DNA of 33,573 bases from Desulfobacteraceae bacterium (GTDB taxonomy: Bacteria > Desulfobacterota > Desulfobacteria > Desulfobacterales > ETH-SRB1): contig JABZFQ010000340.1 of assembly GCA_014237365.1 (NCBI GenBank), positions 1 through 33,573 on the forward strand, given 5' to 3'. This document shows, piece by piece, positions 11,168 to 33,461 of this stretch. The notes beneath the pieces were generated by a model, which had not been told where the DNA came from, ran no database searches, and saw only the letters and a program-made list of their open reading frames with translations. The position numbers were made by a program, and so were the translations under genes. Numbering within the stretch: position 1 is the stretch's first letter; each line of letters starts with the position of its first letter.

Positions 11168-12151
11168 ATGAAAAACATCCTGGTTGTTGGAGGAGCGGGT
11201 TATATCGGCTCTTACATGTGTAAATATCTGGCAAAAAAGGGTTATAATCCCATAGTGCTTGATAATCTTGTATACGGTCATCGGCAGGCAGTAAGGTGGG
11301 GGCCTTTTATCGAAGGTTCCATGGCAGATTCAAAACTGCTGAAAAGCATATTTACAGAATGTCGTGTTGAGGCTGTCATGCATTTTGCTGCATTTTGTTA
11401 TGTTGGAGAATCAGTATCAGAACCTGATAAGTATTACCGGAATAATGTGGCAAATACTCTCAATTTGCTTGAGGTTATGATTGAGAATAATGTACGGTAC
11501 TTCATCTTTTCTTCCTCATGTGCTACCTACGGGGAACCAATAGAAATTCCCATTACGGAACGGCACCTACAAAATCCGATTAACCCTTATGGCAGAAGCA
11601 AACTCATGGTGGAACAGATCCTGAAGGATTTCAGCAATGCCTATGGTTTAAAATATGTTTCTTTGCGTTATTTTAATGCAGCCGGAGCTGACCCTGACGG
11701 TGAGGTTGGAGAGGATCACAGGCCCGAAACACATCTTATCCCCCTGGTGCTTCAGGCAGCCCTTGGGCAGAGGGAGAGAATAGATATTTTCGGAGATGAC
11801 TATCCTACAAAAGATGGCACATGTATTCGAGATTATGTCCATATTGTCGATCTGGCTCAGGCTCACCTTCTTGCTCTGGAAAGGCTTATGAATGGCATGC
11901 AGGAAGGAGAATATAATTTAGGGAATGGTGACGGCTTTTCAGTAAAAGAAGTAATTGAGGTTGCACGAAATATTACGGGCAGGACAATTACTTCAAGGGT
12001 TACAAAGAGACGTCCTGGGGATCCTGCAGTACTGATTGGTTCCAGCAAAAAGGTTATCAAGGAGCTTGGTTGGAAACCTCAATTTGCCGATCTTTCTACA
12101 ATAATTGAAACAGCCTGGAAGTGGCACAAAAGTCATCCTGAAGGTTGGTAA
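11168..12151 (+). CDS. galE: UDP-glucose 4-epimerase
   Basis: NAD-dependent interconversion of UDP-glucose and UDP-galactose, a precursor supply step for surface polysaccharide. The 327-residue protein is the usual length for the short-chain dehydrogenase epimerases. It shows the NAD site GGAGYIG (8-14), SSSCATYGEP with the active-site Ser/Thr (about 113-122), the catalytic YGRSK (Y near 141), and RYFNAAGADPDGEVGEDH, the typical GalE substrate loop. GAGAGGG lies about 10 bases before ATG 11168. It sits between two terminators (11028-11061 and 12218-12250) and so is probably a single-gene unit. It is more GalE-like than UDP-glucuronate epimerase-like. Confidence 0.94.
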   Translation: MKNILVVGGAGYIGSYMCKYLAKKGYNPIVLDNLVYGHRQAVRWGPFIEGSMADSKLLKSIFTECRVEAVMHFAAFCYVGESVSEPDKYYRNNVANTLNLLEVMIENNVRYFIFSSSCATYGEPIEIPITERHLQNPINPYGRSKLMVEQILKDFSNAYGLKYVSLRYFNAAGADPDGEVGEDHRPETHLIPLVLQAALGQRERIDIFGDDYPTKDGTCIRDYVHIVDLAQAHLLALERLMNGMQEGEYNLGNGDGFSVKEVIEVARNITGRTITSRVTKRRPGDPAVLIGSSKKVIKELGWKPQFADLSTIIETAWKWHKSHPEGW

Positions 12152-12217: not shown

Positions 12218-12250
12218 AAGCGAAGCATTGTTTTGACTTCGCTTTTTTTA
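12218..12250 (+). terminator. Rho-independent terminator after galE
   Basis: AAGCGAAG (12218-12225) pairs with CTTCGCTT (12237-12244) and runs into seven T residues. It lies about 65 bases after the galE stop and before the APS kinase gene. Confidence 0.85.
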
Positions 12251-12327
12251 TTTTCTAAATATTGTATTTGACATTAGGGAAAATTAAGAGATATTTTTGT
12301 AAATTTCTGATTAGAGAATTTATCATT

Positions 12328-14040
12328 ATGAATAAAAAATACTCAGAACCTCATGGCGGGACTCTTGTAAATCTTCTTGCTGATTCAGAACGCTGTAAGC
12401 TGCTTAAAAACATTTCACTTAAACTCCCGGATATTACACTTAATGAGAGGCAGCTCTGCGATCTTGAACTCCTTGCAACCGGTGTTTTTTCGCCTTTAAA
12501 AGGTTTTATGGTACGTTCTGAATATGAATCTGTATTGGACCGAATGCGTCTTCAAAACGATATGCTCTGGCCTATACCTGTTTGTTTTGATATTACAAAC
12601 ACAAAAGCGAGCACAATTGAGGCAGGCCAGTCTGTAACTCTCAGAGATCCTGAGGGTTTTCTTCTTGCAATTATGCATATTGAAGATTTTTGGGAAATAG
12701 AACGCGAAAAAGAATGCTTAAAAATTTATGGGACTCTGGATCAAACACACCCTGGAGTAAATTATCTTTTCAATAAATCCGGTGATTATTACATAGGCGG
12801 TAAACTGGAAGTATTAAACCTGCCAATACACTTTGATTTTAAACAGTTGCGTATGTCTCCGGAAGAAGTTGCAATTATATATAAAAAACTTGGCTGGAAG
12901 AGAGTTGTTGGATTCCAGACCAGAAATCCTATTCACAGGCCGCAGTTTGAAATGACTATTAAAGCAATGCAACAAGCCGGTGCCAATTTACTCATTCTTC
13001 CCATTACAGGTATAGCAAAAGCTGATGATTTTGATCACTATATAAGGGTAAGGTGCTATCGTGAAGTGACCAATCACTATCCGCCGGATTCTTACTTATT
13101 AAATTTACTACCTCTTGCCATGCGAATGGCCGGGCCAAGAGATGCGCTCTTAGACGCAATTATATCAAAAAATTATGGATGTACTCATTTTATTATAGGA
13201 CATGAGCATGGGAGCCCAGGCCTGGATAGCAAGGGGAGGCCCTTTTATGACAGCAATATGACCAGGGATCTGTCAGAAAAATATAGTAGTGAAATTAATA
13301 TAAGCGTTATCCATTTTGAGGAGATGGTTTATCTGCCTTTTGAAGATGAATTTCGTTTTCAAAATGAAGTTCCTGCTAATACTCAAACAATATCTCTAAG
13401 TGGTTCAGATATTCGGGAAAGAATTCGTTCGGGAAGGCGGATACCTGAATGGGCTACATTCCCTAAGGTAGTTAAAGAACTTCAAAAAGCTTATCCACCT
13501 CCTCATAAACAAGGATTTACAATCTTTTTAACAGGTCTTTCAGGTGCAGGGAAATCTACAATTGCAAAAATTCTTTATGCTCGTTTTCTGGAAATAGGGG
13601 AAAGACCTGTTTCCCTCCTTGATGGCGACATCGTCCGCCATAATCTATCCAACGAATTGAGCTTTTCTAAGGAACACCGCGACATAAATGTTCGACGTAT
13701 TGGCTTTGTTGCAAGTGAAATCACTAAAAACCGTGGTATTGCTATATGTGCACCCATAGCACCATATTCGGTTACAAGGTCACAAATAAGATCAATCATA
13801 GAAGCTTATGGAGGTTTTGTAGAAGTTCATGTGTCCACTCCAATTGATGTATGTGAAAAAAGAGATAGAAAAGGGATGTATGCAAAAGCCAAAGCAGGAC
13901 TTATAAAGGGATTTACAGGAGTAGATGATCCTTACGAACTTCCTGAATCACCTGAGTTGCGCATAGATACCACCGAGATGACTCCTGACGAGGCAGCAAA
14001 AGAAATTTTGTTATTTTTGGGGCAAAAAGGCTATATCTAG
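12328..14040 (+). CDS. Fused ATP-sulfurylase-like / APS kinase protein
   Basis: 570 residues. Residues about 1-385 are ATP-sulfurylase-like; about 392-570 are APS kinase, which makes PAPS from APS. The kinase half is intact: P-loop GLSGAGKST (403-411), then LDGDIVRHNL, RRIGFVA and KGMYAKAKAG. In the sulfurylase half the usual QTRNPxHRxH motif reads QTRNPIHRPQ (197-206), with Gln at the second His of HxxH, and the usual GRDHAGPG reads GHEHGSPG (291-298). Changes of this kind are known from the Thiobacillus denitrificans two-domain protein, which is an APS kinase without sulfurylase activity (recalled). I therefore infer a PAPS-forming kinase with a structural sulfurylase domain. Start ATG 12328 fits family N-termini; the frame stays open to 12262. 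No sulfotransferase is in the window. Confidence 0.9.
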   Translation: MNKKYSEPHGGTLVNLLADSERCKLLKNISLKLPDITLNERQLCDLELLATGVFSPLKGFMVRSEYESVLDRMRLQNDMLWPIPVCFDITNTKASTIEAGQSVTLRDPEGFLLAIMHIEDFWEIEREKECLKIYGTLDQTHPGVNYLFNKSGDYYIGGKLEVLNLPIHFDFKQLRMSPEEVAIIYKKLGWKRVVGFQTRNPIHRPQFEMTIKAMQQAGANLLILPITGIAKADDFDHYIRVRCYREVTNHYPPDSYLLNLLPLAMRMAGPRDALLDAIISKNYGCTHFIIGHEHGSPGLDSKGRPFYDSNMTRDLSEKYSSEINISVIHFEEMVYLPFEDEFRFQNEVPANTQTISLSGSDIRERIRSGRRIPEWATFPKVVKELQKAYPPPHKQGFTIFLTGLSGAGKSTIAKILYARFLEIGERPVSLLDGDIVRHNLSNELSFSKEHRDINVRRIGFVASEITKNRGIAICAPIAPYSVTRSQIRSIIEAYGGFVEVHVSTPIDVCEKRDRKGMYAKAKAGLIKGFTGVDDPYELPESPELRIDTTEMTPDEAAKEILLFLGQKGYI

Positions 14041-14051
14041 AGATAAAATAT

Positions 14052-15626
14052 ATGTATCTTTCATACTACAACTTAAATAAAAAACCTTTCCAAATCAGCA
14101 CAGACCCAAAATTTTTATGGATAGGTGAAAAACACAAAGAAGCTTTAGCAGTTCTAACATATGGAATACTTGATAATAAAGGGTTTCTTCTTCTAACTGG
14201 CGATGTAGGCACAGGTAAAACTACAATCATAAATGCTTTGATAAACAGCCTTGATGATGATGTAATTATAGCACATGTCACTGATCCATGCCTGAAAAAT
14301 CTTGACTTTTTCAACTTTATTGCAACTAAATTTTTAATAGATAAAAAATTCAGCACCAAAGGTGAGTTCCTTAATCATCTAAGCAAATTCTTGAATGATG
14401 CTTATGCAAAGGATAAAAAGGTATTACTTATAATTGATGAGGCCCAGAGATTAAAACCTGAGCTTCTCGAAGAAATACGACTTTTGTCGAACATAGAAAG
14501 ACAGGATACAAAACTTTTAAATATATTTTTTGTAGGTCAAAAAGAATTTAACAATATATTAATAGAACCGGAGAACAGAGCCTTAAGGCAGAGAATTACG
14601 ATAAACTATTATATCAAGCCGTTGACTGAAAATGAAACAAAAGAATACATAAAGTGCCGTTTAAATATTGCCGGTTCTGAAAAAAATATTTTCAGCTCAA
14701 GTGCAATTAGAGAGATCTTTTCTTTTTCTAAGGGTTTCCCGAGATTAATAAATATAATATGTGATTTGGCCTTGTTAACCGGATATGTTAAAGAGCAAAA
14801 AACAATAAATGAACTTATTATAAAGGAATGCGCTAAAGAGCTTCAAATACCTGCTGAAGAAGCTATAGAAGATGATTCAAATATTGAAACAGGCAGGCTG
14901 AAGCCCGTTGCCAGAGTGGTTGGATGTTTCTTTCTGTTAGTTGGCCTGATTATTCTAACATGGTATATTAGTTATCCTGCAGATTTCAAAATAAAACTTT
15001 CTAATATAAATAAATATATGACGCAAATTATTGATAATATCAATAATTCAAAATCAGAACAATTGCTTCAATCCAGTTCAACAACTATTAATTCCAAGTC
15101 TGTTGCACAAAAGTATTCAATAAATCAGATTGATTCCAGACAAAATAAACAAGTTCAAATTTCTGAAGAGCAAGACGAATTATTAGAGGATAAAAATATT
15201 TCAAATAAAAACCTGTCAGATAATAATGGAGATCACCTTGATAAATTAGGTGTTGTACCCAAACAAATTCCAGATAAAAATATTATCATATATTTCAAAT
15301 ACAATACAAACGAACTTTCAGAAAATGCTTTAATAAAACTTAATGAAGCTGCTGAGATAATGATTCAAAATCCTGACGTATACATTATTATTAAAGGCTA
15401 TACCGACACTTTCGGCAATTACAAATATAATAAGGTGCTTTCTATGTTCAGAGCTAATATCGTAAAAAGCTATCTTACAGGCAAAGGAATTGAGCCAACA
15501 AAAATTAAAGCCATTGCAATGGGGCCGGAAAACTCCATAGATACTAATGAAACTGCAAAAGGGAGAAAAATCAACCGCAGGGTTGAAATAGAGTTTTTAA
15601 CCCAAGGTTTAAACAAAACAGGATAA
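14052..15626 (+). CDS. ExeA/GspA-like AAA ATPase fused to an OmpA peptidoglycan-binding domain
   Basis: 524 residues. The cytoplasmic ATPase (about 1-270) begins MYLSYYNLNKKPFQISTDPKFLWIG, the ExeA-family opening, with Walker A GDVGTGKTT (50-58) and Walker B LLIIDEAQ (125-132). One membrane helix follows (about 286-306). A Ser/Asn/Gln/Lys-rich periplasmic linker leads to an OmpA-family domain (about 410-524) with YFKYNTNELSENA, GYTDTFGNYKYN and a NRRVEIEF end, the usual peptidoglycan-contacting fold. ExeA-type proteins help insert the secretin through the cell wall, but usually end in a PG_binding_1 domain. Related ATPases also occur in exosortase-linked polysaccharide loci. It begins 11 bases after the APS kinase stop, heading the ATPase cluster. 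Confidence 0.88.
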   Translation: MYLSYYNLNKKPFQISTDPKFLWIGEKHKEALAVLTYGILDNKGFLLLTGDVGTGKTTIINALINSLDDDVIIAHVTDPCLKNLDFFNFIATKFLIDKKFSTKGEFLNHLSKFLNDAYAKDKKVLLIIDEAQRLKPELLEEIRLLSNIERQDTKLLNIFFVGQKEFNNILIEPENRALRQRITINYYIKPLTENETKEYIKCRLNIAGSEKNIFSSSAIREIFSFSKGFPRLINIICDLALLTGYVKEQKTINELIIKECAKELQIPAEEAIEDDSNIETGRLKPVARVVGCFFLLVGLIILTWYISYPADFKIKLSNINKYMTQIIDNINNSKSEQLLQSSSTTINSKSVAQKYSINQIDSRQNKQVQISEEQDELLEDKNISNKNLSDNNGDHLDKLGVVPKQIPDKNIIIYFKYNTNELSENALIKLNEAAEIMIQNPDVYIIIKGYTDTFGNYKYNKVLSMFRANIVKSYLTGKGIEPTKIKAIAMGPENSIDTNETAKGRKINRRVEIEFLTQGLNKTG

Positions 15627-15884: not shown

Positions 15885-18212
15885 ATGAAAATCGGACCCT
15901 TACCAAAATTATTAAATAGGTTGAAAAGTACTAAGGCCGCCTCTGATTTGCAGTACCTCAAATCAGAGGTGAAATATAGGACAAAGCTTCAAGAGATCGG
16001 CAATAAAATAAATGCAGCTTCGAATTTGGATGAAATACTAATAGGCCTGAAAAATAAAATTACTTCTCTTTTTGAAGCTGAAAGAATCACTGTTTATGTT
16101 ATCGACAAAGAAAGAAAGGAGCTGGTATCAAGGTTTAAGAGCGGCGATGAAATTTCTGAAATACGCATACCTGTATCAAAAAACAGTTTAGCAGGATATT
16201 CTGTTTTAAAACAAGAACTTATAAATATTAAAAATGTGTATGATGAAAAGGAGCTTTCTGCAATTGATCTTGAAATGAAATTCGATAAAAGCTGGGATAA
16301 AAAAACAGATTTTAAAACAAAACAGGTTCTGGTTGTTCCTGTTATTTTCAGAAACCATCTGCTTGGTGCCTTTCAACTGATAAACAGGATTAACGACAGC
16401 ACATTTACAATAAAAGATGGGCAATCTGCGATGGAGCTGGCCAAGGTACTTGGAATAGCTCTGTTTAACCAGAAAAGAATGGTAAGAGCCAGGCCCAATA
16501 AATTTAGTTATTTGCTTGAAAATCAAATTTTGTCTCAAAAAGAGCTTGATAAAGCCGTAGCTAATGCAAGAAGGCGAAAAGATCTCATCGAAACTATTCT
16601 GGAAAAAGAGCTTAAGATTTCAAAAAATGAGATAGGCAAATCTTTAAGCAAATTTTATAATGTTCCATTTATCAGATACAATGAAAATACCCCGATTCCT
16701 GATGAGCTTCTTGCAGGTTTTAAAGTCTCCTTCATGCGCAAAAATTTATGGGTGCCCCTGCGAATTGAAGATGGCAACATAGTAATTGTAATAGATAATC
16801 CATATGATCTGCAGAAAATTGATGTAATAAGATCTCTCTTTCCAGGCAAAAAAATCAAATTCTACGTTTCATTAAAACAGGATATTCTTGATTTTATTAC
16901 ACTGTTTACCCATGATAAAAAACAGCTTGCAGCGATTGATGAAATCCTTTCTCAGTTGCAGGAAGAGGAAGATGAAATAGAAGAAGCGCAAACTTTAATA
17001 GTCGAGGAAGACAGCGCTATTATTCAACTTGTCAACAAGATCATTCTTGATGCTTATGACAGAAGAGCCTCGGATATTCATATAGAGCCGGCACCTGGAA
17101 AGGAAAGTACTCTGGTCCGCTTAAGAGTTGACGGTGCTTGCTCTACTTATCAAACTATTCCATATAACTATAAGAATGCGGTAGTATCACGTATCAAGAT
17201 AATGGCAGACCTTGATATTGCCGAACGTCGCAAACCGCAGGACGGAAAGATAAAATTCAAAAAATACGGCGGTAAGGATATTGAACTAAGAGTCGCAACC
17301 TTACCTACTCAGGGAAGAGTTGAAGATGTCGTACTTCGCATTCTTGCTGCAGGCGAGCCCATAGCGCTTGAAAGAATGAATTTTTCAAAAGATAATCTTG
17401 AAAACTTTATAAGCACAATCACAAAGCCCTATGGTATTATTTTTGTTTGCGGTCCAACGGGTTCAGGCAAAACTACCACACTTCATTCAGCTCTTGGTTA
17501 TATTAATAAACCTGAAATAAAGATTTGGACCGCTGAAGATCCAGTTGAAATTAGTCAGAAAGGTTTGAGGCAGGTACAGGTTAACCCCAAAATAGGATTT
17601 GATTTTGCTGCTGCAATGCGTGCATTTTTGAGAGCAGATCCGGATGTTATTATGATAGGTGAGATGCGGGACAAGGAAACAGCCCGGATCGGAATAGAAG
17701 CATCGCTAACCGGACATCTTGTATTTTCAACCCTTCATACCAATACTGCTCCTGAGAGCATAATAAGACTTCTTGATATGGGAATGGATCCGTTCAACTT
17801 TGCAGACGCTATTTTATGTATTCTCGCCCAGCGCCTGGTTCAAACACTTTGTGCGGATTGTAAACAGGCATACCATCCTTTTAAAGAAGAATATGATGAG
17901 CTTGTAAGGGAATATGGTATTGAAAAATTCAAAAAAGATATAAACATACCTTACTCACCGGATTTGGCTTTAAACAAAGCAAATGGCTGTGAAGCCTGTA
18001 ACAATAGCGGGTATAGGGGTCGAATGAGCATACATGAGCTGTTAATGGGAACTGATGAAATAAAAAGATTGATACAAACAAATGCGAGAATGGAAGAAAT
18101 AAAAGACCAGGCTATAAAGGACGGCATGAAAACACTTAAACAGGATGGAGTTGCAAAAATTTTTGATGGGCAATGCGATCTTATCCGGGTCAGAACGGTC
18201 TGTATAAAATAA
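15885..18212 (+). CDS. GspE/PilB-family assembly ATPase with an N-terminal GAF domain
   Basis: 775 residues. A GAF domain (about 35-195: LQEIGNKINAASNLDEIL ... LLGAFQLINR) precedes a degenerate MshEN-like region (about 205-345) and a complete secretion ATPase. Visible motifs are DIHIEP, Walker [11 protein letters not shown] near 522, Walker B VIMIGEMRD near 587, the STLHTN His box, and the zinc tetracysteine pairs CADC (near 657) and CEAC (near 702). It should power assembly of a type II secretion or type IV pilus-like fibre from the inner membrane. The GAF domain suggests control by a small ligand or redox signal, but which one cannot be read. Its stop is 4 bases before the next ATPase gene. 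Confidence 0.9.
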   Translation: MKIGPLPKLLNRLKSTKAASDLQYLKSEVKYRTKLQEIGNKINAASNLDEILIGLKNKITSLFEAERITVYVIDKERKELVSRFKSGDEISEIRIPVSKNSLAGYSVLKQELINIKNVYDEKELSAIDLEMKFDKSWDKKTDFKTKQVLVVPVIFRNHLLGAFQLINRINDSTFTIKDGQSAMELAKVLGIALFNQKRMVRARPNKFSYLLENQILSQKELDKAVANARRRKDLIETILEKELKISKNEIGKSLSKFYNVPFIRYNENTPIPDELLAGFKVSFMRKNLWVPLRIEDGNIVIVIDNPYDLQKIDVIRSLFPGKKIKFYVSLKQDILDFITLFTHDKKQLAAIDEILSQLQEEEDEIEEAQTLIVEEDSAIIQLVNKIILDAYDRRASDIHIEPAPGKESTLVRLRVDGACSTYQTIPYNYKNAVVSRIKIMADLDIAERRKPQDGKIKFKKYGGKDIELRVATLPTQGRVEDVVLRILAAGEPIALERMNFSKDNLENFISTITKPYGIIFVCGPTGSGKTTTLHSALGYINKPEIKIWTAEDPVEISQKGLRQVQVNPKIGFDFAAAMRAFLRADPDVIMIGEMRDKETARIGIEASLTGHLVFSTLHTNTAPESIIRLLDMGMDPFNFADAILCILAQRLVQTLCADCKQAYHPFKEEYDELVREYGIEKFKKDINIPYSPDLALNKANGCEACNNSGYRGRMSIHELLMGTDEIKRLIQTNARMEEIKDQAIKDGMKTLKQDGVAKIFDGQCDLIRVRTVCIK

Positions 18213-18216
18213 ATAA

Positions 18217-20496
18217 ATGAATAAACAAGTATCATCAAATAAAAACCAGTTTTTTTTGCAGAAAACCACTCTGAAATCTACCATAAAAGATCAATCAGGA
18301 GCCGGCAAAGCCCGGATAGGCAAGTTTTTGAGTAAATCAGGAGCCGGTAAAACACGGATAGGCGAGCTTCTGAGTAAAGAGGGATATATTACAAGTGCCC
18401 AGTTAAAGAATGCTCTAAACTATCAGAAAACAAATTCGCTAAGGCTGGGCAGCATACTCATCAAACTTGGCTACATAGATGAAGAAAGCATACTAAATGT
18501 ACTGAGCCGCATTTATAATTACCCTGCTGTAATAATATCAGAAAAACATCCGGATCCGGATGCTCTCAAGATCATATCTTACGAAGTCGCTAAAAAATAT
18601 ATGGTTTTTCCTTTAAAGTTTGAAGGGAAAAATCTTGTAGTCACTATGTCGGAGCCTACTGATACGACCGCTGTTGAAAACTTGCAAAAAGAGATCCAGC
18701 GGAATTTAAAGGTCAGTGTGTCTTCTGAACAGGATATAATCGAAGCTTACAGAAAATATTACAAGATAAGTGATGAAGAATATAATAAATATGGATTAAA
18801 AGAAGAAGAAGAAGAAACTATCCCGATCACTGTTGTTGATGACTTTGGTTCTCTGGTTTCAGAAGCAGCAGGTGAAATTGAGCTGCAGAGCATTCAGGAA
18901 GAAGAAGATGCCGGCATGGATCAATATCTTGCCTCCGATGTTCCAATTATCAAACTTGTTAACGGCATTCTTATAAAAGCTATGAACGAGGGTGTCAGTG
19001 ATATACACATTGAACCTTTCGAGAAGTCATTGCAGGTTAGATACAGACTGGACGGCTCTCTTTATAAATCTATGAATTTGCCTCTCAATATTAAAAATGC
19101 CTTAACCTCAAGGCTGAAAATTCTATCTGGTCTGGATATCGCCGAACGGCGTGTGCCGCAGGACGGCAGAATCAAGATGCGTTTTGGCAAAAACAAGACA
19201 GTTGATCTGAGGGTCTCAAGCCTGCCGACTCTTTTTGGTGAAAGCATTGTCATGCGTATTCTTGATCAAAGCGCACTCAATGTAGACCTGACGAAAATGG
19301 GATTCGAGCAAAAAACATATGAAACGCTTAATGGTTGTATTGCAAGGCCATATGGTCTTCTTCTTGTAACCGGTCCGACAGGCAGCGGCAAAACAACTAC
19401 ACTGTACTCTATTCTTAATAAACTTAATACAGAAGACACAAAAATACTTACGGCCGAGGATCCGGTTGAATTTAATTTTAGAGGAATAAACCAGGTGCCT
19501 GTTAAAGATGAAGTTGGAATGACTTTTGCTGCCGCTCTTAAATCGTTTTTGAGACAGGATCCGGATATAATAATGGTTGGCGAAATCCGTGATCACGGAA
19601 CAGCAGAAATTGCTATAAAAGCCGCTATGACCGGGCACCTGGTTTTCAGCACTCTTCATACAAATGACTGTCCTTCAACCATAGGACGTCTTATAGATAT
19701 CGGTATACCATCTTACATGGTAGCTGCTGCTGTAACCATGGTATTATCACAAAGACTGGCCAGAAGGCTTTGTAAAAAATGCAAGGCATTGGTTAATAAA
19801 ACCAACCCATATGAATTAGAGAGTATGGGATTCTCCAAAGAGGAAATCCCAAATTTGAAAATTTATGAAACAAAAGGTTGCCAAACATGCAAAGGCTCCG
19901 GCTACAAAGGCAGAGTAGGCTTATATGAGCTGATGAAAATAACCGACGAAGTTGCTAAGGCAATAAATGCCAATGTTCCTGAGGAACAACTTAGAAAAAC
20001 AGCCATACAGGAAGGTATGGTTACTTTGAGGGACTCGGGCCTGACTAAAATTAGAGAGGGAGTAACCTCTATTGATGAAATTCTAAAAAAAACAACCATA
20101 ACCAAAGAGGCTTTGCCCGCATATCTTGTGAATCCTGATGTAGAAAAATATGAAGATAAAGAGGTGATTGTCCGTGAAGGCAATAAAGATATAGATTTTT
20201 TCAAGCTTATGCAGGGTGGTTTAATTGTTGTTAAGGGAGGCAAAAAAATAGCTGAAATTGTGCAGCCCGGTGAATATTTTGGAGAAATATCAGCTATAAC
20301 CGGAGAACCTCGATCTGCCAGCATTATTTCAAAGGGAAGGACTATTATAAAACGATTCCCAGGCGATAAGCTCTATGAACTAATTGAGAAACATCCTGAT
20401 GTTGCCAAAAATTTATTCGCGGTAATTGCTGCTCGTCTAAATAAGGCTGACAAGATTATGCTCAGGTTGATTAATGATAGAAAACAGAATAAATAA
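18217..20496 (+). CDS. GspE/PilB-family assembly ATPase with MshEN and C-terminal cNMP-binding domains
   Basis: 759 residues. The N-terminus carries two tandem MshEN motifs, [16 protein letters not shown] (from R47) and [16 protein letters not shown] (from R76), matching the pattern that binds cyclic di-GMP in MshE (family knowledge). The ATPase follows: DIHIEP, Walker [11 protein letters not shown] near 386, Walker [10 protein letters not shown] near 451, and zinc pairs CKKC (near 519) and CQTC (near 555). Residues about 635-740 form a cyclic-nucleotide-binding domain with a phosphate-cassette-like [18 protein letters not shown], retaining the Glu and Arg. A 14-codon in-frame duplication precedes the first MshEN motif. 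The stop is just before ispF. Dual second-messenger control is inferred. Confidence 0.9.
18295..18378 (+). repeat. 42-bp tandem duplication at the 5' end of the MshEN ATPase gene
   Basis: 18295-18336 and 18337-18378 are adjacent 42-base units encoding [14 protein letters not shown] and [14 protein letters not shown]. The second unit begins the first full MshEN motif, so the duplication adds an extra partial RxGxxL motif in front of it. Confidence 0.88.
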
Positions 20497-20497
20497 A

Positions 20498-20971
20498 ATG
20501 CGTATAGGTATTGGATATGATGTGCACAAACTGGTTCATGGTCGGAAGCTGATTCTTGGAGGAATCATTATCCCCTTTGAAAAAGGTTTATTGGGCCATT
20601 CAGATGCAGATGTGCTTGTCCATGCTTTATGTGACGCCCTTTTAGGTGCAGCCGGTTTAGGTGATATTGGTCAACATTTCCCGGATACAGATCCTGAATT
20701 CAAAGACATTCACAGTATAAAACTTCTTGTAAAAACCTGCGCAATAATCAGTAGAAAATGCTTTAAAATAAATAACATAGATTCTACGATTTTTGCACAG
20801 GAACCAAAAATTGCTCCTTTTAAAGAAGCCATGAAAAAAAACATCGCTCAGGCAATAGAAATTGAACCTGCCCGCATCAATATCAAAGCCACCACAACTG
20901 AAGGCCTCGGGATGATTGGAAAAGGGGAAGGAATTGGGGCTATGTGTATAGTTCTTATTAGGGCTCGGTAA
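20498..20971 (+). CDS. ispF: 2-C-methyl-D-erythritol 2,4-cyclodiphosphate synthase
   Basis: Forms the cyclodiphosphate of the MEP isoprenoid pathway in the cytoplasm. The 157-residue length and motifs fit the family: GIGYDVHKL with metal ligands D8 and H10, [19 protein letters not shown] with the third ligand His, [15 protein letters not shown], and [16 protein letters not shown] near the end. ATG 20498 is chosen because MRIGIGYD is the canonical start; ATG 20474 lies inside the upstream gene. The TAA of the ATPase gene ends 1 base before it. It is a housekeeping gene embedded among secretion genes. Its own stop codon (20969-20971) lies within the degraded left end of repeat copy A5. Confidence 0.95.
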
Positions 20972-21120
20972 AAAATAACTTGGTAGAATTTGTTTGATCT
21001 CAGATCACAAAAGTTGATGGAATAGCGAGCTATTTCAATAATTTTGGGATTTGAGATCAAATAAAGGCGGCCTGAAGCTGTGATGCATAGTTGTGGAAGT
21101 TATTTCGTCCACGTTCCTAA
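20958..21120. mobile_element. MITE-like palindromic element, copy A5 (left end degraded)
   Basis: The right end is intact (GGAAGTTATTTCGTCCACGT then TCCTAA, ending 21120). The subterminal TTTGATCTCAGATCACAAAA and central TGGAATAGCGAGC blocks match the other copies. The left terminal repeat is diverged (TTAGGGCTCGG in place of TTAGGAACGTGG), and about 20 bases of the left arm are missing. The ispF stop lies inside this left end. Orientation matches copy A1. Confidence 0.78.
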
Positions 21121-21195
21121 TGCTTTCAACATTTGCCGTAAATTTAATTGATTTGATTGAACAAAATCGCAGGAAAAATTGATTGGGGTTATAGT

Positions 21196-21606
21196 ATGAA
21201 CAAAAAAAAGCACATCGGGCAGCGAGGATTTACTCTGATTGAGATGCTTATCGTCATAATAATCATAGGTCTTCTCGCCTCTCTTGTGGGACCAAAATTA
21301 TTTACAAAAGTTGATAAGGCCAGGATTAAAACTGCAAAAGCGCAGATCGAATTGTTGTCCGCAGCAATTGATACATATCGTCTAGATATGGGAAAATTTC
21401 CTGCAACATTAAAAGAGTTGAGAAGCTCCGATGATCCCAGATGGGAAGGACCATATCTTCCAAAAGCAATTCCGCCTGATCCGTGGAATAACTCTTACGA
21501 GTATAAATATCCGGGCAAACATGGCGCTTATGATATCATTTCGTACGGGGCAGATGGTAAACCAGAAGGAACAGGAAACGATAGGGATATCGTTAGCTGG
21601 GAATAA
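21196..21606 (+). CDS. gspG: Type II secretion major pseudopilin GspG
   Basis: Main subunit of the periplasmic pseudopilus. 136 residues with a short basic leader cut by prepilin peptidase after GQRG, giving FTLIEMLIVIIIIGLLASLVGP with F+1 and E+5. The mature part has KAQIELLSAAIDTYRLDMGKFP and the C-terminal PPDPWNN ... YGADGKPEGTGNDRDIVSW that holds the calcium site and is diagnostic for GspG. ATG 21196 gives the expected 11-residue leader; the frame also opens at TTG 21157. It is the first gene of the main T2SS operon, downstream of repeat A5, and lies 5 bases before gspE. Confidence 0.95.
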   Translation: MNKKKHIGQRGFTLIEMLIVIIIIGLLASLVGPKLFTKVDKARIKTAKAQIELLSAAIDTYRLDMGKFPATLKELRSSDDPRWEGPYLPKAIPPDPWNNSYEYKYPGKHGAYDIISYGADGKPEGTGNDRDIVSWE

Positions 21607-21611
21607 TAACA

Positions 21612-23288
21612 ATGCTCTTAGGTGAAATCCTGGTTAAAAATTTTGGAGTTGATCCTGTTGATGTTGAAAAAGCATTGCAGTTTCAGGCTAATTTTGAAGG
21701 AATGCTTGGCTCAATCCTCATCAACATGGGAATCATCTCTGAGGAGACTCTGGTTTTCGCCTTATCAGATCAACTAAATCTTAAAACATTTAAGGATATC
21801 AATATCAATGAAGTAGATTTCAGGCAGCCGCCGGCCCTTAAAAATGTGAATATACCCTTTTTGCTGCAGCGGTGCTGGCTTCCTTTGAATAAAAAAAATG
21901 GCACGGTCTTTTTCGCCGCTGCTAATCCCCTTGATTATGAAGTAACCCAATATCTTAACGGCCTTAGTATGGATTGGGATACGTATTTGGTGACCGAGTC
22001 ACAGTTCAGGGAACTGGAGAGCGAGCACTCCCTTGCACAGGAAACCAATGGAATGGGATATCCGGATATTTCGGATATGCTGGATACTGAGATTGACAAA
22101 CTGCGTGAACTTGCATCAGAGGCCCCCATTGTAAATCTTGTCAATACGTTTATAGCAAGAGCGGTCAGTCGCGGGGCATCCGATCTTCACTTTGAACCTT
22201 ATAAGAATATGTATCGTGTGCGCTTCCGAATCGACGGGATTCTCCATGACATTGATTTTTTACCCTTGAAAATGCAGCTTCCTGTGGCGTCCAGGATAAA
22301 GATCCTTTCCGGAATGGATATCTCTGAAAGAAGAAAACCCCAGGACGGTCAGATATCCATGAAAGTATCTTCCAAAGAACTGGACATCAGGGTTTCTACT
22401 CTCCCCTTAGCGGACGGGGAAAGCCTGGTTTTACGTTTTTTGGTTAAAGAAGCGGTAAAGTATGAGTTAGAGACCCTTGGTCTGGAAACGGATCTTGCCA
22501 TAACTTTAAAAAAAGATATTTTTAAATCTTCAGGAGTTATTCTCCTTGTCGGACCCACTGGAAGCGGCAAAACGACTACTTTGTATTCCTGCCTCAATAA
22601 AATAAACAGCGAAGACAAAAAGATAATAACCATAGAAGATCCTGTGGAATATCATTTGGATGGAATTAACCAGATACAGGTTAGGCCCGAAATCGGCTAT
22701 GGATTTCTTAATGCTTTAAGAAGCATCCTTCGTCAGGACCCTGATATTATTATGATTGGAGAAATAAGAGATGGAGAAACAGCCAGAATTGCTATGCAAT
22801 CTTCCCTTACAGGGCATCTTGTCTTCAGTACAGTCCATACTAATGACGCGCCTTCAGCCTACATGCGTCTCATTGATCTTGGCGTGGAAGAGTACCTGAT
22901 AAATTCTTCTTTGATTTCCATAATAGCGCAACGACTGGTAAGAAGGGTATGTCGCGATTGTACAAAACCGGCTCCTCTTGATTATGCCACCATTAAGACG
23001 TATGGCCTTGATGTTCTGGCTGAAAAATACAATTTAAAGACTTTGCAAGCTGTGGAGGCCGTGGGATGCCTGGCTTGCAACCAAACCGGTTATAAGGGTC
23101 GGGTCGGTATCATGGAGTATCTCAAATGCACTCCCGAGATTAAAACCATGCCAAAAGACAGCGGATTTTCTTTAAATGCAAGAAAGTACATGTCAGATAA
23201 CAATATCAGAAGCCTGACAAAAGATGGATTCCTTAAAGTTATCAAAGGAATTACAACAATTGACGAAGTTTTGAGAGTTTCGGGGTAA
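21612..23288 (+). CDS. gspE: Type II secretion assembly ATPase GspE
   Basis: Cytoplasmic hexameric ATPase that drives pseudopilus assembly, bound to GspL. 558 residues: an N-terminal N1E/MshEN-like region (LLGEILVKNFGVD and MLGSILINMGIIS, lacking the Arg of the cyclic-di-GMP motif), then the core with DLHFEP, Walker [11 protein letters not shown] near 314, Walker B IIMIGEIRD near 378 and the STVHTN His box. Zinc pairs CRDC (near 447) and CLAC (near 486) follow. It is shorter than the two ATPases upstream and has no extra sensor domain, so it is the housekeeping ATPase of this operon. Its stop overlaps the gspF start by one base (TAATG). Confidence 0.95.
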   Translation: MLLGEILVKNFGVDPVDVEKALQFQANFEGMLGSILINMGIISEETLVFALSDQLNLKTFKDININEVDFRQPPALKNVNIPFLLQRCWLPLNKKNGTVFFAAANPLDYEVTQYLNGLSMDWDTYLVTESQFRELESEHSLAQETNGMGYPDISDMLDTEIDKLRELASEAPIVNLVNTFIARAVSRGASDLHFEPYKNMYRVRFRIDGILHDIDFLPLKMQLPVASRIKILSGMDISERRKPQDGQISMKVSSKELDIRVSTLPLADGESLVLRFLVKEAVKYELETLGLETDLAITLKKDIFKSSGVILLVGPTGSGKTTTLYSCLNKINSEDKKIITIEDPVEYHLDGINQIQVRPEIGYGFLNALRSILRQDPDIIMIGEIRDGETARIAMQSSLTGHLVFSTVHTNDAPSAYMRLIDLGVEEYLINSSLISIIAQRLVRRVCRDCTKPAPLDYATIKTYGLDVLAEKYNLKTLQAVEAVGCLACNQTGYKGRVGIMEYLKCTPEIKTMPKDSGFSLNARKYMSDNNIRSLTKDGFLKVIKGITTIDEVLRVSG

Positions 23289-31619: not shown

Positions 31620-31919
31620 AGGATGTTTGTAGTGCCTGTAGTCATAACCCATTGAATATTGGCATATTTTTTTAAAGTGCGAAAATCGGGTTAGGTTAAA
31701 AGTTAATGACTATGTCCAATCTTGATAAATATCCAGGAAATGACATAATGACTTTACATCCGACTGAAATTATAATAACCATTCCATTTTTTAGACAAAT
31801 CCGCATGGGTTTTCTCTGTAACTCAAGGGGCGGAGCTATGTAAAATAATGTGACAAAAAGCCAAAGTATTGCCTGATATCTCTGCTGGCTTTGTGCGAGG
31901 AAAAACAGGAAATGAATTT
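31620..31919. other. Intergenic region, no gene seen
   Basis: 300 bases after gspD without a convincing ORF, strong terminator or repeat-family member. A weak AT-rich dyad followed by a T-run (near 31651-31676) and a candidate promoter are the only signals. AGGA at about 31907-31910 serves the next gene. Confidence 0.5.
31722..31749 (+). promoter_or_regulatory. Candidate sigma-70 promoter for the DUF1703 gene
   Basis: TTGATA (31722-31727) and CATAAT (31744-31749), each one base from consensus, with a 16-base spacer, lie 171 bases before the gene start. Such matches occur by chance in AT-rich DNA, so this is tentative. Confidence 0.25.
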
Positions 31920-33461
31920 ATGAAAAACCTTCCAATAGGGATCCAGACATTTCGTGATATCGTGCAAAACGATTATCTTTACGTAGACAAGACAGAGAAA
32001 ATATTTGATCTGGTGAAAAATCCAAAGGGCGTATATTTTCTTGCAAGACCAAGAAGATTCGGAAAAAGTCTTTTAATTTCCATATTAAATGAAATATTTG
32101 AAGGAAACAAGAATCTTTTTAAAGGGTTGTGGATATATGAAGCGGATTATACGTGGGAAAAATATCCTGTTGTAAGAATTGATTTTAGCAAAAAAAAGGC
32201 GGAAAATAAGGATGGACTAAAGGCTTTTATCCTGAATCAATTAAAAAATATAGGTAATAAATACGGGATCTCGTTAGACCATGATCAATATGATGAGGCG
32301 TTTGATGAACTTTTGATCAAACTGGGTGAAATCAATAAAGTTGTTGTCCTGATTGATGAATACGATAAACTGATCATTGATAATATTGAAAACAAAAATC
32401 TTGCTGTTGAATTTAGGGAGATATTAAAGGGTTTTTATACTATTATCAAAGCATGTGATGAACATATCAGATTTATTCTTTTAACAGGAGTAAGCAAATT
32501 TTCCAAGGCAGGAGTTTTCAGCGGGTTGAACAATCTGGAAGACATTTCCATGGATGCCCGACATTCCTCACTTCTCGGAATAACCAGGCAGGAGATGGAA
32601 AGCTGTTTTAAAGAGTATATAGAACTTTTTGCAAAATCTGAAGTCATTAAGAAATCAGAACTGATTAAAAAAATAATTTTTTGGTACAATGGTTTTTGCT
32701 TTAGCGGAAGCTGTGAAAAGGTTTTTAATCCCTTTTCAGCGCTTCTTTTATTCCAAAAGCTTAATTTTGGAAACTACTGGTTTGAGAGCGCGACTCCAAG
32801 TTTTCTGATAAAACTGATTAAGAAAAAAAACTTTGATTTAAAGAGATTAGACGGAGTCAAGGTAAGTGAATCCGCATTTAGTTCATACGAGATAGAAAAT
32901 CTGAAGATAATGCCCATACTCTTTCAAACCGGCTATCTGACGATCACAGGATATAATAAAGAAAGGATGGAATATACCCTGGCATATCCGAATTTTGAGG
33001 TAAAAAACTCAATGACCGAATGTTTGGCTGAAGTATATTCTTTTGTGGAAAGAGAACTGGTTCACGGTTATGCATGGAAACTGATTGATGCGTTAAGAGA
33101 TCATGATTATGAGTTATTTTTTGATACCTTGCGGGTCTTTTTTGCCAATATTCCATACGACCTTCATATAGAGAGGGAAAAATACTATCAAACGGTTTTT
33201 TATCTGATATTTTCTCTTATCGGCTTGAAGGTAGAAGCGGAAGTAAGAACAAACAAAGGCCGGATAGATGCGGTTATCATGGACAAAGATGTGCATGTAT
33301 TTGAGTTTAAATTCGAGAAAGATAAGGATAAAGCCTTGAGTCAGATTAAGGGAAAAAGGTATTTTGAGAAATATCAGAACGCAGGAAAGGACGTTTATCT
33401 TTTTGGCGTTGAGTTTAAGGACAGGAATGTGGGGGAATGGGTAGTTGAAAAGATAAATTGA
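31920..33461 (+). CDS. AAA-ATPase-like / PD-(D/E)XK nuclease-fold protein (DUF1703 type)
   Basis: 513 residues. N-terminal AAA-ATPase-like domain opening LPIGIQTFRDIVQNDYLYVDKTEKI, with the P-loop variant ARPRRFGKS (R43-S50) and Walker B VVLIDEYDKLI (D146, E147). The C-terminal PD-(D/E)XK-like domain has GRIDAVI (D450) and VFEFKF (E462, K464), i.e. the D...ExK nuclease pattern. This family is widespread, often in many genomic copies; its biological role is unresolved, with suggestions of mobile or defence functions. Start ATG 31920 has AGGA 9 bases upstream; the frame extends back to 31869 without a ribosome site. It is unrelated to secretion and probably a separate accessory gene. Confidence 0.88.
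   Translation: MKNLPIGIQTFRDIVQNDYLYVDKTEKIFDLVKNPKGVYFLARPRRFGKSLLISILNEIFEGNKNLFKGLWIYEADYTWEKYPVVRIDFSKKKAENKDGLKAFILNQLKNIGNKYGISLDHDQYDEAFDELLIKLGEINKVVVLIDEYDKLIIDNIENKNLAVEFREILKGFYTIIKACDEHIRFILLTGVSKFSKAGVFSGLNNLEDISMDARHSSLLGITRQEMESCFKEYIELFAKSEVIKKSELIKKIIFWYNGFCFSGSCEKVFNPFSALLLFQKLNFGNYWFESATPSFLIKLIKKKNFDLKRLDGVKVSESAFSSYEIENLKIMPILFQTGYLTITGYNKERMEYTLAYPNFEVKNSMTECLAEVYSFVERELVHGYAWKLIDALRDHDYELFFDTLRVFFANIPYDLHIEREKYYQTVFYLIFSLIGLKVEAEVRTNKGRIDAVIMDKDVHVFEFKFEKDKDKALSQIKGKRYFEKYQNAGKDVYLFGVEFKDRNVGEWVVEKIN

Follow-up and report, generated by a model that had tools for sequence, protein, structure and literature searches.

Proteins that join an ATP-sulfurylase-like domain to an APS kinase-like domain differ in which of the two has kept its active site. 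In the bifunctional Sat/APS kinase of Aquifex aeolicus (PDB 2GKS), the sulfurylase motifs are all intact (QTRNPMHRVH, GRDHASPG, SGTEIR), and the ATP sulfurylase of Penicillium chrysogenum (PDB 1I2D; QTRNPMHRAH, GRDHAGPG) is an active sulfurylase bearing an inactive, allosteric kinase-like domain. The APS kinase of Thiobacillus denitrificans (Q3SM86, PDB 3CR8) has a degenerate sulfurylase domain in front of an intact kinase, and the title of the paper describing it (Gay et al. 2009, cited through PMC13213808 and PMC6715247) speaks of an “absence of ATP sulfurylase activity”. In the APS kinase of Entamoeba histolytica (PDB 23vk), an inactive sulfurylase-like domain, reported to have lost substrate binding, touches the kinase of the adjacent protomer and raises kinase turnover: its deletion cut kcat ~100-fold, although the authors warn of aggregation of the deletion form, and point mutations within it cut kcat 21- to 60-fold (PMC13213808). 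The importance of the HxxH histidines for the sulfurylase reaction is illustrated by human PAPSS1, in which their mutation removed ATPS and spared APSK, H425A or H428A singly being enough to abolish sulfurylase activity (PMC11697783).

The fusion protein studied here is encoded in a window of 33,573 bp, which is one whole contig (G000:C25) of a Desulfobacteraceae genome of 3.49 Mb rated 99.3% complete. The gene (12328–14040, forward strand, as are all the features given below for it) codes for 570 amino acids from the ATG at 12328, from which residues are numbered; its mechanical open reading frame begins upstream, at the TTG at 12262. One chain combines a PUA-like N-terminal sulfurylase domain (PF14306, 12346–12819, E 1.6e-53), an ATP-sulfurylase catalytic-type domain recognized by domain match, with a degenerate active site (PF01747, 12844–13488), and an intact C-terminal APS kinase domain (PF01583, 13510–13968, E 7.7e-57). 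A sequence-only reading of this locus had proposed that its HxxH motif reads H203-R-P-Q206, and this is what we find at 12934–12945. The surrounding segment QTRNPIHRPQ (residues 197–206, 12916–12945) keeps QxRN and the first histidine, H203, but the second catalytic histidine is replaced by Q206 (codon 12943–12945). The motif was rightly called degenerate as regards the second histidine, with the refinement that H203, QTRN and SGS-x-x-R are all kept, the last as SGSDIR (13399–13416), which the alignment identifies as a conservative form of SGTxxR retaining the arginine. The GRDHAGPG loop had likewise been read correctly as GHEHGSPG (residues 291–298, 13198–13221), GRD proper having become GHE through R292H and D293E. 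Taking QxRN, HxxH, GRD and SGTxxR together, the sulfurylase site is thus not intact. By contrast, the kinase motifs are preserved, as had been claimed: the P-loop GLSGAGKS from residue 403 (13534–13557), the DGD motif D432-G433-D434 (13621–13629) within an intact LDGD in the alignment, and FTGVDDPYE. A catalytic histidine at a shifted position, which that reading had named as a possible objection, was sought in the alignment to 2GKS and 1I2D; the motif region is free of gaps and none was found. Sequencing error as the source of the substitution was rejected, since dozens of related genomes carry it.

With these sulfurylase residues lost and the APS kinase motifs intact, the protein fits the T. 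denitrificans type in its sequence, and the likeness suggested from sequence alone held on comparison: the two share domain order, HxxQ (HRAQ in 3CR8), a degenerate GRD loop and an intact kinase, whereas HxxH is retained by the proteins of Aquifex and Penicillium. The T. denitrificans protein is nevertheless more decayed (QARQPMHRAQ, GGEHQPDG), with QxRN lost as QARQ and more of the domain gone, while ours keeps QTRN and SGSxxR. An AlphaFold model of the monomer (mean pLDDT 85.9) matches 1I2D, 2GKS and 3CR8 across its full length, the best structural match being the two-domain fold of 1I2D (TM 0.86); 2GKS, which has the same architecture, is 46% identical in its structure match. The sulfurylase-like domain is therefore predicted to retain its fold despite the lost site. 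The Entamoeba enzyme also couples an inactive sulfurylase-like domain to an active kinase, but that domain is shorter, far more diverged and devoid of the substrate-binding loop, in a protein that is mitosomal and dimeric. Our protein is ordinary in kind, its type being already known; what is worth recording is the scale of misnaming and the stepwise decay described below.

We consider it very probable, from the residues present, that this protein is an APS kinase bearing a catalytically dead ATP-sulfurylase domain. Inactivity is expected because H206Q would take away a residue without which the sulfurylase could not use ATP, and the weakened GRD loop points the same way, with the caveat that the mutagenesis precedent is histidine to alanine and the change here histidine to glutamine. 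Alternatively, the H206Q sulfurylase might still be active, maybe slower or kinetically altered, making the protein a true bifunctional PAPS synthetase. The retention of QTRN, H203 and SGSxxR and the conservation of Q206, which does not drift freely, speak for such activity, but human PAPSS1 needs each HxxH histidine (PMC11697783), the title of the T. denitrificans study denies sulfurylase activity to an HxxQ enzyme, and our protein has additionally lost the R and D of GRD, so that we regard this alternative as improbable. The sequence-only reading had also warned that a bifunctional name would probably be a misannotation. The best NCBIfam match is indeed NF004040, “bifunctional sulfate adenylyltransferase/adenylylsulfate kinase” (score 821 bits; cut-off 669 bits), an “equivalog” whose name probably misdescribes the protein given its lost site residues. 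In a sample of 394 Desulfobacterota genomes, 35 of the 40 whose fusion scores above the NF004040 threshold carry one or more changed core sulfurylase residues, and counting such fusions as ATP sulfurylases would make metabolic reconstructions wrong.

Comparison with other fusions indicates that the lesion is old and clade-wide among the related Desulfobacterota proteins. Within the same order, 27 near full-length fusions were compared, ours included; the second histidine of HxxH is gone in nearly all, mostly replaced by glutamine, and QxRN, GRD and SGTxxR vary by lineage. Across 80 further loci, the related Desulfobacterota fusions are HxxQ, with a few HxxE, one HxxL and one HxxH with other losses, while HxxH and the other motifs are intact or nearly so in Acidobacteriota, Planctomycetota, Pseudomonadota, Verrucomicrobiota, Actinomycetota and others. 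The HxxQ sequences form one strongly supported group in trees. In free trees 3CR8 falls outside this group, on a long branch; when it is held within the group the likelihood is slightly higher and the AU test does not reject this placement (AU p 0.59 for the whole protein, 0.64 for the kinase), so that it possibly belongs to the same clade and shares H206Q by descent. What was one odd crystal structure becomes a widespread type. An alignment of 103 fusions altered at one site or more has Q at position 206 in 73, E in 9 and H in 17, and none of the 103 departs from the G, K and S of the kinase P-loop or from the DGD residues examined. Seven rows, some of them one genome under two handles, deviate from the canonical set at 206 alone, which suggests that H206Q preceded the other motif losses; these natural steps, from H206Q alone to further decay, offer a test of activity loss and regulatory gain. 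One lineage within the HxxQ clade (L137/L065) has a histidine at 206 (HRLH), with GRD and SGT lost. A second Desulfobacterota group (L133, L135, L136, L140 and L150; L130, L131, L139 and L143) keeps HxxH and has lost QxRN and/or GRD (e.g. LHNAH...TPNHADP, LHCAH...ADDHGDP); it apparently lost the sulfurylase site independently, and G201, placed next to intact relatives, is a third case of site loss. The extra domain suggested by very long frames at Desulfacinum-type loci (L124, L063, L127) was discarded, their translation being of low complexity by eye, as in open-frame artefacts.

Dissimilatory sulfate reducers require Sat whatever the state of a fusion, and the distribution of second Sat genes has to be read with this in mind. 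The 394-genome sample yielded 43 near full-length fusions, ours included, the genomes of the other 42 having a completeness of 90% or more and a contamination of no more than 5%. They were called broken or intact on the core motifs QxRN, HxxH and SGTxxR, the GRD loop being left out in a repeat of the main test because D293 is a weak criterion, N occurring there in intact fusions that are the sole Sat. In the 42 near-complete genomes, a second PF01747 gene accompanies 37/37 broken fusions versus 1/5 intact ones (Fisher p 4e-5, ignoring ancestry); the intact fusion is the sole Sat in four cases of five, and a broken one in none of the 42 genomes, which argues against sulfurylase activity of the broken forms. 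In a separate set of 49 genomes, which has some overlap with the first, a second Sat goes with 31 of 35 broken versus 3 of 14 intact fusions (p 1e-5, ignoring ancestry). When broken site and second Sat were compared in pairs on the phylogeny, the test rested on one or two independent pairs, too few for significance. Because sulfate reducers need Sat anyway, the pattern is confounded, and it backs the dead-sulfurylase reading short of independent proof. Four draft genomes with broken fusions (L005, L036, L050, L060) yielded neither a second Sat nor, as another source of APS, CysD/CysDN. Some relatives are altered at 206 alone, and two of them, L050 and L060, which differ only by H206Q with every other motif intact, are among these drafts, a circumstance that favours an active enzyme; this simplest form may keep residual sulfurylase activity. 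All four drafts carry dsrA, however, and among the genomes lacking a second Sat aprA was not found in G059 and G071, and the aprA contig of G081 stops ~1.5 kb beyond that gene. The two drafts without aprA and the contig end near aprA suggest missing sequence, which is the likelier cause of the absent second Sat.

Despite the loss of its site, the sulfurylase domain is relaxed yet retained under purifying selection, and is not a decaying remnant. The ratio of sulfurylase to kinase divergence has a median of 2.63 in broken versus 1.75 in intact fusions, and dN/dS computed with L034, the nearest relative at 95% identity, is ~0.20 for the sulfurylase and ~0.08 for the kinase part, from small counts. 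That the gene might be on its way to a pseudogene, neither domain mattering, would fit the motif loss within the sulfurylase domain, but it is scarcely credible given an open frame, kinase motifs intact in every member checked, dN/dS well under 1 in both domains and retention across the phylum. By analogy with the described enzymes, the first domain is probably a scaffold and activator of the APS kinase, most likely kept to hold the oligomer together and/or boost kinase turnover. The fungal ATP sulfurylase is regulated allosterically by its inactive kinase-like domain, and the mirror image of that arrangement, overlapping with the dead-domain reading as a special form of it, would be a sulfurylase domain that senses a ligand (e.g. 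APS) and regulates the kinase. The purifying selection on the domain, the conservation of H203 and Q206 above that of adjacent motif residues, and the altered kinase turnover of Entamoeba dead-domain point mutants (PMC13213808) favour such a sensor, which we nonetheless hold to be rather unlikely, as QxRN, GRD and SGT decay in many relatives, against what a conserved ligand pocket would predict, and the Entamoeba work reports substrate binding lost. More speculatively, Desulfobacterota fusions might repeatedly, via different lesions, have become pseudo-sulfurylase kinases where another Sat supplies APS, and the HxxQ pocket might have been re-used to sense APS and so set the PAPS share of the respiratory APS pool, a combination that we put forward only tentatively and think doubtful.

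As to the source of APS, the sequence-only reading had predicted dependence on a separate Sat, and the genome codes for one other PF01747 protein, on contig C79, a canonical Sat (QLRNPMHRSH, GRDHAGVG). Its gene shares a locus with qmoC (522 bits) and aprA (934 bits), where two HdrA-like proteins occupy the place expected for QmoA/QmoB; dsrA is on a different contig, and no CysD was found in a search of this genome. In gene content the host is a dissimilatory sulfate reducer, with an APS source. We infer that this Sat would supply the APS that the C-terminal kinase of the fusion presumably phosphorylates to PAPS, diverting a side-stream of the respiratory APS pool to sulfotransferases. Several candidate PAPS users are present in the genome, including two clear PF13469 sulfotransferases on contig C13. 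An O-methyltransferase lies between these two (L161, G000:C13, 3428–6861), and enoyl-ACP reductase-, 3-hydroxyacyl-CoA dehydrogenase- and ketosynthase-like genes were recognized by eye beside them; the cluster possibly makes a sulfated lipid or polyketide.

Within the window, the upstream neighbour of the fusion gene codes for an NAD-dependent, GalE-like sugar epimerase (11168–12151, forward strand, domain match), which recurs in 5 clade loci, this one included. Neighbours at related loci include CysQ-like proteins of the inositol-phosphatase family and sugar-nucleotide enzymes, which fits polysaccharide or lipid sulfation without proving it. A stem followed by a T run was seen by hand at ~12219–12252, where the terminator scan made no call. 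Downstream, starting 11 bp past the fusion stop, a gene for an XrtA/PEP-CTERM-type AAA ATPase with a C-terminal OmpA domain (14052–15626, forward strand) possibly shares a transcript with the fusion gene. Farther on (15885–23288), three PilB/GspE-type ATPases (15885, 18217 and 21612) are clustered amid type II secretion/pilin genes, with an ispF (YgbB) gene at 20474–20971 between them. All three contain MshEN-type domains, in one of them together with a cyclic-nucleotide-binding domain. Near the contig end, an AAA-ATPase_like/PDDEXK_9 gene (31869–33461) is apparently unrelated to its neighbours.
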